A stretch of DNA of 64,000 nt. Origin: Demequina pelophila (GTDB taxonomy: Bacteria > Actinomycetota > Actinomycetes > Actinomycetales > Demequinaceae). The notes below the pieces were generated by a model. That model did no database searches. It had not been told where the DNA came from and saw nothing but the letters and a program-made list of their open reading frames with translations. How positions within the stretch are numbered: position 1 is the stretch's first letter; every line of letters begins with the position of its first letter. Positions 18,570-42,107 of the stretch are shown piece after piece. The DNA lies in NCBI RefSeq assembly GCF_000971175.1, contig NZ_BBLY01000004.1, positions 430,298 to 494,297 on the forward strand, given 5' to 3'. The position numbers and the translations under genes are program-made.

Positions 18570-18878
18570 GCGCGTCCGGGTGCCGATGCGCGACACCGCA
18601 GGCAGGTGCGCGAAACACCGGCCGCCCGCCCGCGCCCGCCGGGGCTGGGGTATAACAGTGTCATGGGCGCACGGCCGCCGGGTGGCATCGTCGCGTTCGA
18701 GCGAAGTCCCTGGTAGGGCGCCCTGTTTGTCGCTGTCGCGGCAGGCGGATCCGGCGTCTGGGCCCATGGTCCCCGGGACCTTCGCCCAGGCATAACGCCA
18801 CTATTCCGGCGTAACGTGAACGAACGGGATCGAGGCCCGGAGGGGGCCGGAACCCATGCCAGAGGAGCGAATCTAGAG
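18570..18878 (+). promoter_or_regulatory. adhE upstream region
   Basis: This 309-bp stretch has no convincing gene. Visible items are a TATAAC -10-like box at 18651-18656, a perfect inverted repeat GGTCCC-C-GGGACC (18768-18780), and AACGCC-N8-GGCGTA (18794-18799, 18808-18813). AGTCCC and GGGACC elements recall the repeats before the OFA gene. AGAGGAGCG at 18861-18869 is the adhE ribosome-binding site. Operator functions are guesses. Confidence 0.4.
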
Positions 18879-21602
18879 ATGACTACCACCGCCCCGGAGA
18901 GCAAGGCTGCGGAGACCTCCGTCGCCGACGCCATTGACGCACTCGTCGCGAACGCGCAGCAGGCTCTGAAGGCCTACGCGAACGTGACGCAGGACGACGT
19001 CAACCTCTTCGTCAAGAAGGCCTCGGTGGCCGCCCTGAACCAGCACGGCGAGCTCGCCGTTCTCGCGGTCGAGGAGACCGGCCGCGGCGTGTTCGAGGAC
19101 AAGGCCGTCAAGAACATCTTCGCGTGCGAGCACGTGACCCACTCGATGGCCGAGATGAAGACGGTCGGCGTGATCAACGAGGACCCGATCAAGGGCATCA
19201 TCGAGATCGCGGAGCCCGTCGGCGTCGTCGCCGGTGTCACCCCCGTGACCAACCCGACCTCGACCGCGATCTTCAAGTCGCTCATCGCGCTGAAGACCCG
19301 CAACCCGATCATCTTCGCGTTCCACCCGAGCGCCCAGAAGTCCTCCGTGGCCGCCGCGAAGATCGTGCGCGACGCCGCGATCGAGGCCGGCGCCCCCGAG
19401 AACTGCATCCAGTGGGTCGAGACCCCCTCGATCGAGGGCACCAACACCCTGATGAACCACGACGGCGTCGCGCTCATCCTCGCGACCGGTGGTAACGCGA
19501 TGGTCAAGGCCGCGTACTCGTGCGGCAAGCCCGCCCTGGGCGTCGGCGCGGGCAACGTGCCCGCCTACGTGCACAAGTCGGCCAACCTCAAGCGCTCGAT
19601 CAACGACCTGGTGATCTCGAAGGCGTTCGACAACGGCATGGTGTGCGCCTCGGAGCAGGCCGTCATCCTCGACGCGGAGATCTACGACGAGGCGCTGTCG
19701 CTCTTCGACCGCCTCCACGCCTACAAGGCCACCCCCGACGAGAAGGCCAAGCTCGAGGACTTCATCTTCGGCACCCAGGCCTTCGGCGAGAACTGCGCCG
19801 GCGCCAAGCTCAACCCGAACGTGGTCGGCAAGACCCCGCAGTGGATCGCCGAGCAGGCCGGCTTCTCCGTCCCGGAGGAGACCTCGATCATCCTCGCCGA
19901 GGTCTCGACCGTGGGCGTCGACGAGCCCCTCACCCGCGAGAAGCTCGCGCCGGTGCTCGCCGTCCTCAAGTCCGAGTCGACCGAGCAGGGCCTCGACTAC
20001 GCCGAGCGCATGGTCGAGTTCAACGGCCTGGGCCACTCGGCCGCGATCCACGCGACCGACGACGAGCTCATCCGCGAGTTCGGCAAGCGCTGCAAGGCCG
20101 TCCGCATCATCGTCAACTCGCCGTCGTCGCACGGCGGCATCGGCGACATCTACAACGCCTTCATGCCGTCGCTCACGCTCGGCTGCGGCTCGTACGGTCG
20201 CAACTCGGTGTCCGCGAACGTCACCGCCGTCAACCTGATCAACGTGAAGCGCATCGGCCGGAGGAACAACAACATGCAGTGGTTCAAGGTTCCGGCGAAG
20301 ACCTACTTCGAGCCGAACGCGATCCAGTACCTGCACGACATGAACGCCGTCGAGCGCGTCACGATCATCACCGACGCGACCATGACCCGCATCGGCATCG
20401 TCGACAAGGTCCTGGACGTCCTGAACCGCCGCTCGAACAACGTGTCGGTCCAGATCATCGACAACGTCGAGCCCGAGCCGAGCGTCGCGACCGTCCGCAA
20501 GGGCGCCGAGACCCTCCGCGCGTTCAAGCCGGACACCATCATCGCCGTCGGCGGTGGCTCGCCCATGGACGCCGCCAAGGTCATGTGGCTGCTCTACGAG
20601 CACCCGGAGACCAACTTCTCCGACCTCAAGGAGAAGTTCTTCGACGTCCGCAAGCGCGCGTTCCAGTTCCCGAAGCTGGGCGACCTCGCCAAGCTCGTCT
20701 GCATCCCGACCACGTCGGGCACCGGCTCCGAGGTCACCCCGTTCGCGGTCATCTCCGACCCCGAGAACGGCCGCAAGTACCCGCTCGCCGACTACGCGCT
20801 CACCCCGCACGTCGCGATCGTTGACCCGGTCCTCACCGCGGCGCTCCCGTCGCGCGTGGCCGCCGACTCCGGCATGGATGCCCTGACGCACGCCACCGAG
20901 GCGTACGTCTCGGTCTACGCGAACGACTTCACCGACGGCCTCGCCCTGCAGGCCATCAAGATGGTCTTCGAGTACATCGCCGAGTCGGTCAACAACGGCC
21001 CCGACGCGATGAAGGCCCGCGAGAAGATGCACAACGCCGCGACGATCGCCGGTATGGCGTTCGCCAACGCGTTCCTGGGCCTCGTGCACGCCATGTCGCA
21101 CGTGACCGGCTCGACGTTCCACGTCGCGCACGGCCGCACCAACGCGATCTACCTCCCGCACGTGATCCGCTACAACGGCAAGGTTCCCACCAAGCCCACG
21201 TCGTGGCCCAAGGCGGAGTCGTACGTCGCGCCGGAGCGCTACCAGGACATCGCGAAGATGCTCGGTCTGCCGGCCTCGACCCCCGAGGAGGGCGTCGAGT
21301 CCTACGCGAAGGCCGTCGAGGAGCTGCGCGCCGCGGTCAACATCGAGGCGTCCTTCCAGGAGGTCGGCGTCGACGAGGCCGACTTCATGGCGTCGCTCGA
21401 CACCCTCGCGATGAACGCCTACGCGGACCAGTGCGCCCCCGCCAACCCGCGTCTGCCCATCCTCGAGGACATGAAGATCATGATGGAGGCCGCGTACTTC
21501 GGCACCACGTGGGACGAGGTCAAGGCCGGCCGCAAGACGGAGGAGGCCCCCAAGGCCGCCGCCAAGAAGGCGCCCGCCAAGAAGGCCGCGACCAAGAAGT
21601 AA
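18879..21602 (+). CDS. adhE: Bifunctional acetaldehyde-CoA/alcohol dehydrogenase
   Basis: A 907-aa fusion of an N-terminal CoA-acylating aldehyde dehydrogenase and a C-terminal iron-dependent alcohol dehydrogenase. The aldehyde dehydrogenase part has catalytic Cys256 in NGMVCASEQ and the GVGAGNVP nucleotide loop. The alcohol dehydrogenase part has GGGSPMDAAK for NAD, and the Asp/His ligands sit in DSGMDALTHATEAY and in HAMSHVTGSTFHVAHG. It reduces acetyl-CoA to ethanol and regenerates NAD+, balancing PflB. The last 22 residues are a Lys/Ala tail (KKAPAKKAATKK) not usual for AdhE. The start is chosen at 18879 for its ribosome-binding site. Confidence 0.96.
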   Translation: MTTTAPESKAAETSVADAIDALVANAQQALKAYANVTQDDVNLFVKKASVAALNQHGELAVLAVEETGRGVFEDKAVKNIFACEHVTHSMAEMKTVGVINEDPIKGIIEIAEPVGVVAGVTPVTNPTSTAIFKSLIALKTRNPIIFAFHPSAQKSSVAAAKIVRDAAIEAGAPENCIQWVETPSIEGTNTLMNHDGVALILATGGNAMVKAAYSCGKPALGVGAGNVPAYVHKSANLKRSINDLVISKAFDNGMVCASEQAVILDAEIYDEALSLFDRLHAYKATPDEKAKLEDFIFGTQAFGENCAGAKLNPNVVGKTPQWIAEQAGFSVPEETSIILAEVSTVGVDEPLTREKLAPVLAVLKSESTEQGLDYAERMVEFNGLGHSAAIHATDDELIREFGKRCKAVRIIVNSPSSHGGIGDIYNAFMPSLTLGCGSYGRNSVSANVTAVNLINVKRIGRRNNNMQWFKVPAKTYFEPNAIQYLHDMNAVERVTIITDATMTRIGIVDKVLDVLNRRSNNVSVQIIDNVEPEPSVATVRKGAETLRAFKPDTIIAVGGGSPMDAAKVMWLLYEHPETNFSDLKEKFFDVRKRAFQFPKLGDLAKLVCIPTTSGTGSEVTPFAVISDPENGRKYPLADYALTPHVAIVDPVLTAALPSRVAADSGMDALTHATEAYVSVYANDFTDGLALQAIKMVFEYIAESVNNGPDAMKAREKMHNAATIAGMAFANAFLGLVHAMSHVTGSTFHVAHGRTNAIYLPHVIRYNGKVPTKPTSWPKAESYVAPERYQDIAKMLGLPASTPEEGVESYAKAVEELRAAVNIEASFQEVGVDEADFMASLDTLAMNAYADQCAPANPRLPILEDMKIMMEAAYFGTTWDEVKAGRKTEEAPKAAAKKAPAKKAATKK

Positions 21603-21642
21603 CCTGACCGGCCCGACCGACTGACGGTCGCGCCGCTCGCAC

Positions 21643-21684
21643 AGGGCCCCGATCCCGTCCACTGAGGACGAGGGTCGGGGCCCT
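21643..21684 (+). terminator. Hairpin after adhE
   Basis: AGGGCCCCGA (21643-21652) pairs with TCGGGGCCCT (21675-21684) around a 22-nt loop that can pair further internally. Its 3' half starts the duplicated non-coding module, and the second copy at 22033 has lost this pairing. Confidence 0.65.
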
Positions 21685-22200
21685 GATGCGTGTCCGGGCT
21701 GTGCCTGTGCCGGTGCCCGTGCTCACCCCGCGCCTACGCCTGCACCTGCGCCCGCCGCCCGCCGCCGCCCACCGCCCGCCGCGCCTCCCGCCCGCCGCGC
21801 CTCCCGCCCGCCGCGCCTCCCGCCTGCCGTGCCTCCCGTGTGACGGACGATGCGCGGGTTTGTCCGTCATGCGGGTCGGCCCGGGCACGTATGGCGGACG
21901 ATGCGGCGAAGAGTCCGACATCCGAGCCCCCGGTAGCCGCGGCGGGAGTGGCCGTGACGGTGCCGGTGCCGGTGCTGGAGATGGGGCGCCCGTCCTGCCA
22001 CCGATGCCGCCACTTGCGCCCGCCCCCCCGCGGAGGACGAGGGTCGCGGCCCTGGTGCGTGTCCGGGCTGCGCCGCGCCTCCCCTGTGACGGACGATGCG
22101 CGGGTTCATCCGCCATACGTGCTCACGCCAACCCGTATGGCGGACGATGCAGAGAAGAGTCCGACATCCGAGCTGGTGGCACCGCCAGCGGTAGCCCCGC
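21664..22200. repeat. Duplicated palindromic non-coding module carrying the GGACGATGC motif
   Basis: Two diverged copies lie in this gene-free stretch. GAGGACGAGGGTC...GTCCGGGCTG occurs at 21664 and 22033. GAAGAGTCCGACATCCGAG occurs at 21908-21926 and 22154-22172. Each copy has a central inverted repeat around the motif. In copy 1 it is TGACGGAC/GTCCGTCA (21841-21848, 21862-21869) and in copy 2 it is TCCGCCATACG/CGTATGGCGGA (22109-22119, 22134-22144). GGACGATGC appears four times (21845, 21896, 22091, 22142). Copy 1 also has three 15-bp C-rich tandem units near 21780-21825. No plausible protein is encoded. It resembles a REP/BIME-type extragenic element. Confidence 0.75.
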
Positions 22201-22278
22201 CGGAGAGGGAACCCGGCGCCGACCGCACGCGTTGAACCACCGCATCGGATCCCCGAAGCGACCCCCGAGAGGACCGCC

Positions 22279-22707
22279 ATGACCCCGCCCACCGTCCGCC
22301 GCCTCGCCACGCGCGTCGGCGCGATCGCCGGCGCCGCCGCGCTCGTGGCAGCGCTCGCCGCCTGCGCGCCGGACCGCGACGAGGCCGACGCCGCGGACAC
22401 CGACGCGGACCGGTGGGAGCAGGAGCTCGAGCAGTGGACCGAGCGGGTCGAGGAGTGGGCGGACGATGCGGCCGACGAGGTCGAGCGCGCCGTCGCCGAG
22501 GGCGAGCACTGGGTGGAGGAGCGCGGCCGCGAGGCGGTCGAGGGCAAGGCCGAGGACTGGATCGAAGGCCTCGGCGACGCGATGGACGATGCGCGGGCCC
22601 ACATCGAGCGGTGGCTCGACGAGCACAGCCAGGACGCCCGGGCGTGGATCGACGAGCAGGCGGGCGCCATCACCGCCTGGGTCGACGGACTCCACGACGC
22701 CGAGTAG
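22279..22707 (+). CDS. Hypothetical Trp-striped acidic lipoprotein
   Basis: I do not recognise this 142-aa protein. It has a signal peptide ending in the lipobox LAAC (Cys28 region), so it should be a surface lipoprotein. The mature part looks like one long acidic helix. Tryptophans recur at spacings 7, 7, 18, 16, 18, 11 and 11, mostly whole numbers of helical turns, which would make an aromatic stripe suited to membrane, glycan or protein binding. GAGAGGA precedes the ATG. Two in-frame GGACGATGC copies encode its DDA triplets. It lies between two repeat tracts, so it may be lineage-specific. Confidence 0.7.
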   Translation: MTPPTVRRLATRVGAIAGAAALVAALAACAPDRDEADAADTDADRWEQELEQWTERVEEWADDAADEVERAVAEGEHWVEERGREAVEGKAEDWIEGLGDAMDDARAHIERWLDEHSQDARAWIDEQAGAITAWVDGLHDAE

Positions 22708-22854: not shown

Positions 22855-23967
22855 GTGACCGCCGACTTTCCCGTTGAGATCTCGCACCTGCGCTCCACCT
22901 TCTCCCAGATCGAGGCGGTGACCGACCCCGCGACGCTCAAGCAGCGCATCGCGGCGCTCGAGGAGCAGGCCGCCGCGCCGGACCTGTGGGACGACCAGGA
23001 GAACGCCCAGGCGGTTACCAGCCAGCTCAGCCAGGCGAACGCGGAGCTGGAGCGCCTCACGCGCATGGGCTCGCGCATCGACGATCTCGAGGTGCTGGTC
23101 GAGCTGGGCACCGAGGGCGAGGACGAGGACACCCTCGCGGAGGCCGAGTCCGAGCTCGAGGTCCTCAAGAAGGACCTCGCGGCGATGGAGGTCCGCACCC
23201 TCATGACGGGGGAGTGGGACGAGCGCAACGCGGTGGTCACCATCCGCTCCGGCGCCGGCGGCGACGACGCCACCGACTTCGCGGAGATGCTGCTGCGCAT
23301 GTACCTGCGCTGGGCCGAGCGTCACGGCTACGCGACCAAGGTGCTCGACACCTCGTACGCGGAGGGCGCCGGCATCAAGTCCGCGACCTTCGAGGTGAAG
23401 GCGCCGTACGCCTTCGGCACCATGTCCGTCGAGGCGGGCACGCACCGCCTCGCGCGCATCAGCCCGTTCGGCTCGGCGGACAAGCGCCAGACGTCGTTCG
23501 CGGCCGTCGAGGTGGTCCCGGAGATCGAGTCCACCGACCACATCGACGTGCCCGAGGCGGAGATCAAGGTGGACGTGTTCCGCTCGTCCGGCCCGGGCGG
23601 CCAGTCGGTCAACACCACCGACTCGGCGGTGCGCCTCACCCACCTTCCCACCGGCATCGTCGTCTCGATGCAGGACGAGAAGTCGCAGATCCAGAACCGC
23701 GCCGCCGCCATGCGCGTGCTCCAGTCGCGTCTCCTCATGCTCAAGAAGGAGGAGGAGGCCGCGCAGAAGAAGGAGCTCGCCGGCGACATCAAGGCGAGCT
23801 GGGGCGACCAGATGCGCTCGTACTTCCTCTACGGCCAGCAGCTGGTCAAGGACCTGCGCACCGGCTACGAGTCCGGCAACCCCGCCACCGTCTTCGACGG
23901 CGACCTCGACGGCTTCATCGACGCCGGCATCCGCTGGCGCCGCCAGCAGCAGGCCCAGCAGGACTGA
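22855..23967 (+). CDS. prfB: Peptide chain release factor 2
   Basis: A 370-aa class I release factor that reads UGA and UAA and hydrolyses peptidyl-tRNA. The GGQ motif is at 248-250 ([16 protein letters not shown]) and the anticodon-like region includes [13 protein letters not shown]. It is a single open frame: no in-frame UGA and no programmed +1 frameshift site near codon 26, as usual for actinobacteria. The GTG start follows TAGACT (22841-22846) by 8 bp, so the mRNA is probably leaderless. It heads the conserved prfB-ftsE-ftsX-smpB order. Confidence 0.96.
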
Positions 23968-42072: not shown

Positions 42073-42107
42073 GGGACGATGCGGCGGCCGGGTGGCCGCA
42101 TCGTCCC
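42073..42107. terminator. Bidirectional hairpin made of two inverted GGACGATGC copies
   Basis: GGGACGATGCGGC (42073-42085) pairs perfectly with GCCGCATCGTCCC (42095-42107). It lies between the convergent rdgB and NUDIX genes. The 13-bp stem consists mainly of the genome-wide 9-mer in inverted orientation. Confidence 0.85.

Follow-up and report, generated by a model that had tools for sequence, protein, structure and literature searches.

A tandem-duplicated element of paired 51-nt palindromes, dispersed between genes in Demequina

Results and discussion

The adhE-prfB locus

The window, i.e., the whole stretch of 64,000 nucleotides of the Demequina pelophila genome (2.68 Mb) that was analysed, had a G+C content of 71% and contained a repeated module between the adhE stop codon (21602) and a small lipoprotein-like open reading frame (22279–22707, forward strand). 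The adhE gene, encoding a bifunctional aldehyde/alcohol dehydrogenase, occupied 18816–21602 on the forward strand and had orthologues of 83–91% identity in sister species; it was followed by a G+C-rich inverted repeat (21642–21685, forward strand), which is a probable terminator and had equivalent hairpins in those species. The lipoprotein-like frame had no Pfam match and tblastn found no match to it in sister species; small lipoprotein-like frames were seen at the equivalent place, as judged by eye. Beyond it lay prfB, encoding release factor 2 (22855–23967, forward strand; orthologues 78–91% identical). An earlier note, made from the sequence of the window, had described the module as lying where no gene is present, and this was correct, the next reading frame beginning only at 22279.

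The same note had described the module as a duplication, and all of the strings it quoted were located in the window. Thus, GAGGACGAGGGTC occurred at 21664 and 22033, GAAGAGTCCGACATCCGAG at 21908 and 22154, and the 9-mer GGACGATGC four times on the forward strand (21845–21853, 21896–21904, 22091–22099 and 22142–22150). For a 19-mer of the module, the chance expectation in the window was 0.02 at three or fewer mismatches. The module consisted of two diverged copies of one unit, comprising a 52-nt flank and a 123-nt core. The flanks (21654–21705 and 22023–22074, direct repeats on the forward strand) were 87% identical, and the 3' half of the inverted repeat after adhE belonged to this duplicated flank; the cores (21826–21948 and 22072–22194) were 77% identical over 123 nt. 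Spacing between copies was unequal, being 369 nt for the flank and 246 nt for the core, because the first copy had gained a C-rich stretch that included a 16-bp direct tandem repeat (21766–21845, forward strand). The two copies arose when one element, flank included, was duplicated in tandem, and not through two independent insertions.

In the sister species examined, the spacer between adhE and prfB contained neither copy. A search of 21500–22400 with Rfam covariance models (E up to 1) produced no match, and when relatives were searched with the entire module by BLAST, the matches were mainly of low complexity. The spacer of D. rhizosphaerae (L035, 7215–7926) contained an unrelated long palindrome, ACTTCGAGGATTCCGGG...CCCGGAATCCCCGAAGT, and sequences resembling AATGACACAGGTGACAGG were seen in the same spacer at L032, L036 and L039; Demequina may possess other palindrome families besides the 102-nt element described next.

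Structure of the element

Each core contained an element of 102 nt, which was identified by covariance models R1 and R2 and was not assigned to a strand. Element A (21830–21931) and element B (22076–22177, also evident from pairing counts) were each composed of two abutting 51-nt palindromes (21830–21880 and 21881–21931; 22076–22126 and 22127–22177). The inverted-repeat arms quoted previously, TGACGGAC/GTCCGTCA at 21841/21862 and TCCGCCATACG/CGTATGGCGGA at 22109/22134, were present. The description could be refined, in that GTCCGACATCCG is the 3' arm of a second hairpin (CGTATGGCGGAC-13 nt-GTCCGACATCCG); each copy therefore has four arms, spaced rigidly as 27-24-27 (A: 21842–21848/21862–21868 and 21893–21899/21913–21919; B: 22088–22094/22108–22114 and 22139–22145/22159–22165).

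Across 54 ungapped copies (see below) the consensus of the 51-nt palindrome was CCGGCCCGYATGTCGGACCGATC-NNN-GATCGGTCCGACATRCGGGCCGG, and the usual loop was CGATC-NNN-GATCG. The units formed 14.8 pairs per 20, against 8.6 and 7.7 for the adjoining 51-nt blocks and 7.9 for random DNA; since the adjoining blocks paired no better than random, the element is exactly a dimer. Being a dimer of palindromes, a single strand could fold either as two hairpins of about 20 bp or as one long hairpin, and covariation supported both forms. These alternatives account for the differing pairing partners that the earlier note had reported for the two copies. As RNA, element A was predicted to favour the two-hairpin form (z = -3.2). 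Element B folded weakly (z = -0.5), its best pairing being through the central arms, which was better than that of hairpin 1, and its minus strand was predicted to fold as a long hairpin.

Distribution of the family

Copies of the module palindromes elsewhere in the genome were first revealed by BLAST of the genome against itself. An exact pattern (GTCGGACN{3,28}GTCCGAC) produced only three matches in the genome, approximately the level in other genomes, and was insufficient because the family is degenerate; a covariance model was therefore needed. A template with four arms of 7 nt, spaced 27-24-27, found eight copies in four genomes, from which model 1 was built, while model 2 was built from 54 copies. 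Model 1 identified about ten copies in the D. pelophila genome, all arranged alike over 102 nt and including A and B; the others were at C11:142825, C8:328683, C11:1057315, C7:362161, C8:223181, C7:297225, C7:298434 and C4:64505. Three further matches (G000:C2, 24786, 25008 and 25149) were set aside, being in a repetitive stretch and agreeing at only 25–27 of 40 template positions. Model 2 found no additional strong copy over 1.26 Mb of this genome.

Among sister Demequina, model 1 identified about 66 copies in seven species (G002, G006, G022, G024, G025, G026 and G030), all of them rich in GGACGATGC, and model 2 added one more Demequina (G265). Applied to 297 genomes of the order, with 94 genera sampled, model 2 found nothing outside Demequina; a weak model 1 match in G047, outside the genus, was absent with the larger model and was taken as chance. 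Phage and plasmid records contained no match to the consensus, and a literature search found no REP/REPIN-like family for Demequina. Copy number was about 2–24 per genome. Only two elements were found in G026, 3.8 kb apart (C1:2452783 and C1:2456574), the second of which looks like a single 51-nt palindrome.

Covariation and constraint

The earlier note had supposed that structure is kept more than sequence, and the aligned copies bore this out. Of the 40 pairs in the two-hairpin form, 33 showed changes on both sides; 74.1% of cells were paired, compared with 68.8% in shuffled alignments, and double changes occupied 179 cells, compared with 103. The covariation score was 0.246 against 0.158 when shuffled, a value reached by none of 500 shuffles, and at most 0.109 when the structure was slid along the alignment; all measures of covariation were far above these slid controls. 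When orthologous copies were compared, there were 49 double compensations against 5–11 in slid controls. The same comparison found 208 broken pairs, exceeding the 96 changes that kept pairing, and structural constraint is therefore real but moderate.

Broken pairs in such number would also be expected of neutral quasipalindromes, i.e., old dimers with neither function nor mobiliser, tolerated as junk at the 3' ends of genes, in which correction by template switching at replication had maintained the complementarity of the arms. Template switching is a mutational process that perfects imperfect palindromes. It would leave unexplained both the exact 51+51 length and the presence of one arm sequence per species at sites where sister species have other arms (see below), and a neutral origin is considered unlikely.

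Position relative to genes

None of 77 copies laid out against predicted genes was inside one; all were intergenic. At the 73 copies with both neighbours called, gene orientation was convergent in 37 cases, co-directional in 28 and divergent in 8; in a sample of the D. pelophila genome 162 of 1115 gene pairs were convergent (14.5%), and this enrichment is only indicative, since gene calling relied on a simple script based on codon usage, and the non-independence of copies at shared sites makes the p-values for convergent sites too small. Several convergent spacers were almost wholly filled by the element; at L118, the distances between the element and the two stop codons were 9 and 26 nt.

Such positions are what plain bidirectional host terminators would produce, the copies resembling each other only as G+C-rich hairpins. 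That explanation has no need of a fixed 102-nt dimer, a shared CGATC-NNN-GATCG loop or species-specific arms, nor does it suit the 28 of 73 copies between co-directional genes and the 8 of 73 between divergent genes; it is judged improbable. In the window, the element lay 240 nt past adhE, behind an ordinary terminator hairpin, and so is not the primary terminator there. The most likely role of the element would be that of a 3'-end hairpin, i.e., a structured 3'-end part of transcripts that might act as a bidirectional stop or as a stabiliser between convergent genes.

Shared sites and species-specific arms

Many copies could be matched by their flanking sequences to a site common to between two and four species, as with L103/L140/L159/L175 and L121/L126/L153/L166. 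Arm sequences were characteristic of each genome: GTCGGA-type and GCAGGA-type arms numbered 23 and 3 in D. pelophila (G000), 14 and 0 in G002, and 41 and 4 in G022, whereas G024 had 32 GCAGGA-type arms and none of the GTCGGA type. G030 contained additional subsets of GTCGCA and TGCGGG/CGCGGG arms. At the same sites, GCAGGA arms were found in G024 where its sister species had GTCGGA. The sites are old, and within a genome the sequences move together.

Species-specific arms at common sites are evidence against host terminators that are independent of one another, and favour a recognising factor or else homogenisation from copy to copy. Homogenisation within genomes is proposed because one arm sequence is common to the G024 copies and another is found in sister copies at the same sites; copies would be kept alike by a sequence-specific factor or by copy-to-copy conversion, and such a factor would not be a RAYT. 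The preferred interpretation, to which about even chances are given, is that of a tandem-duplicated, dispersed extragenic element, which would be a BIME/REPIN-like structured 3'-end element with its copies homogenised within each genome. With shared sites and species-specific arms, Demequina provides a natural system for testing how short repeats of this palindromic kind stay uniform within a genome, and whether they act at transcript ends.

Comparison with REP, BIME and REPIN sequences

REPINs are extragenic paired palindromes in lineage-specific families, with tandem duplications that include flanking sequence and compensatory changes in their stems (PMC3116915). The Demequina element resembled those of Pseudomonas and E. 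coli in each of these respects, having a two-palindrome unit, extragenic and dispersed copies, a tandem duplication including flank, compensatory stem changes and a lineage-specific distribution. It differed in having no RAYT, no GTAG end, and tens rather than hundreds of copies; its palindromes, moreover, were symmetric, 51 nt long and exactly abutting, where a REPIN consists of two REPs around a spacer. BIMEs and repeats tagged with GTAG or CGTC include palindrome dimers in which each palindrome may fold by itself or both may form a single large hairpin, and their placement relative to flanking genes has been surveyed, without mention of actinobacteria (PMC3733652). The Demequina element had the same alternative folds, yet neither tag was fixed at any position, GTAG being present in only 4–7 of 54 copies.

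These shared features are also the case for a classical REP/REPIN mobilised by a RAYT, the Y1 tyrosine transposase, for which the earlier note had suggested a search. None was found: PF01797 (Y1_Tnp, RAYT) had no match in 37 Demequina genomes, while control genomes were positive. With no GTAG or CGTC tag at a fixed position, and about 2–24 copies per genome rather than more than 100, this explanation is largely refuted and is regarded as very remote. The 'REP/BIME-like' description therefore stood insofar as the family is dispersed, intergenic and conserved in structure, but not with respect to the RAYT gene and tag: without these the element is REPIN/BIME-like in kind, and probably works like one, while membership of the class does not follow. 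The family lacks both the only known mobiliser and the usual sequence tag.

One gene recurred near the elements. It had similarity to AbiEi_4 and REase_MTES_1575, both below Pfam cut-offs, and in three species, which together represent two loci, it lay between two elements. These were L109/L110 in D. pelophila (L109, 1501–2810, equivalent to G000:C7:297225–298534, with elements at C7:297225 and C7:298434), L141 in G022 (269–1602) and L164 in G030 (378–1602). A gene of this type also adjoined elements in G030 (L158) and G002 (L169). This recalls the position of RAYT genes beside REPs; the association is suggestive only, since these loci were chosen for the elements they contain and a more distant REase_MTES_1575-type homologue in the D. 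pelophila sample (L262) had no element beside it, which rules the gene out as an obligatory partner. It is tentatively suggested, as a rather unlikely possibility, that the family is a REPIN-like system without RAYT, where a trans-acting factor would recognise the arms and keep the genome on one dialect, such that sites switch together; the AbiEi/REase_MTES_1575-type protein would be the candidate.

The 9-mer as a genome-wide word

The earlier note had listed four copies of the 9-mer in the module. These were genuine, but the word was not specific to the module: there were 38 copies in the window against 1.9 expected (e.g., at 42074–42106 and 59991) and 1294 in the genome. These were divided 641/653 between the strands, while the reversed word, used as a control, occurred 13 times (4/9). 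In 464 kb of the genome it was the most over-represented 9-mer (243 copies against 16 expected), and its density was about fourfold higher between genes (1.42 per kb) than within them (0.36 per kb); it sometimes formed inverted pairs after genes.

Such pairs at gene ends, an over-representation of about 40-fold between genes and the four copies in the module would together suit a module that was merely a cluster of this word in inverted repeats. The 9-mer occurred in only 14 of 77 elements, however, and so does not define them; the usual loops were CGATC-NNN-GATCG and the 102-nt layout was unrelated to the 9-mer. As a full account, a cluster of 9-mers is refuted and is given a very low probability, a shared origin for part of the loop sequence being possible. 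GGACGATGC is a genome-wide signal separate from the element family.

Strong over-representation, equal on both strands, is characteristic of an uptake sequence, and ComEC was present in nearly all genomes. Sister Demequina carried GGCCGATGC or GCCCGACGCTG in place of GGACGATGC, in a manner resembling the dialects of DUS; GGCCGATGC occurred about 2000 times in G015 and some 1700 times in G023, and another sister word, CCCGACGCTG, had 663 copies in G009. Dialects of uptake words have been described for Pasteurellaceae and Neisseriaceae. The resemblance to the DUS of Neisseria and the USS of Haemophilus lies in the roughly 1300 9-mers, their equal strands, their greater density between genes, the inverted pairs and the species-specific words; the differences are an actinobacterial host and a word unlike both known words. 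GGACGATGC and its sister words thus look like uptake-sequence dialects, and Demequina genomes with the repeat family would also carry an uptake-sequence-like word with dialects of its own. In G026, the ComEC homologue (C1:423579–424363) was split into two matches, one of which contained an in-frame TGA.
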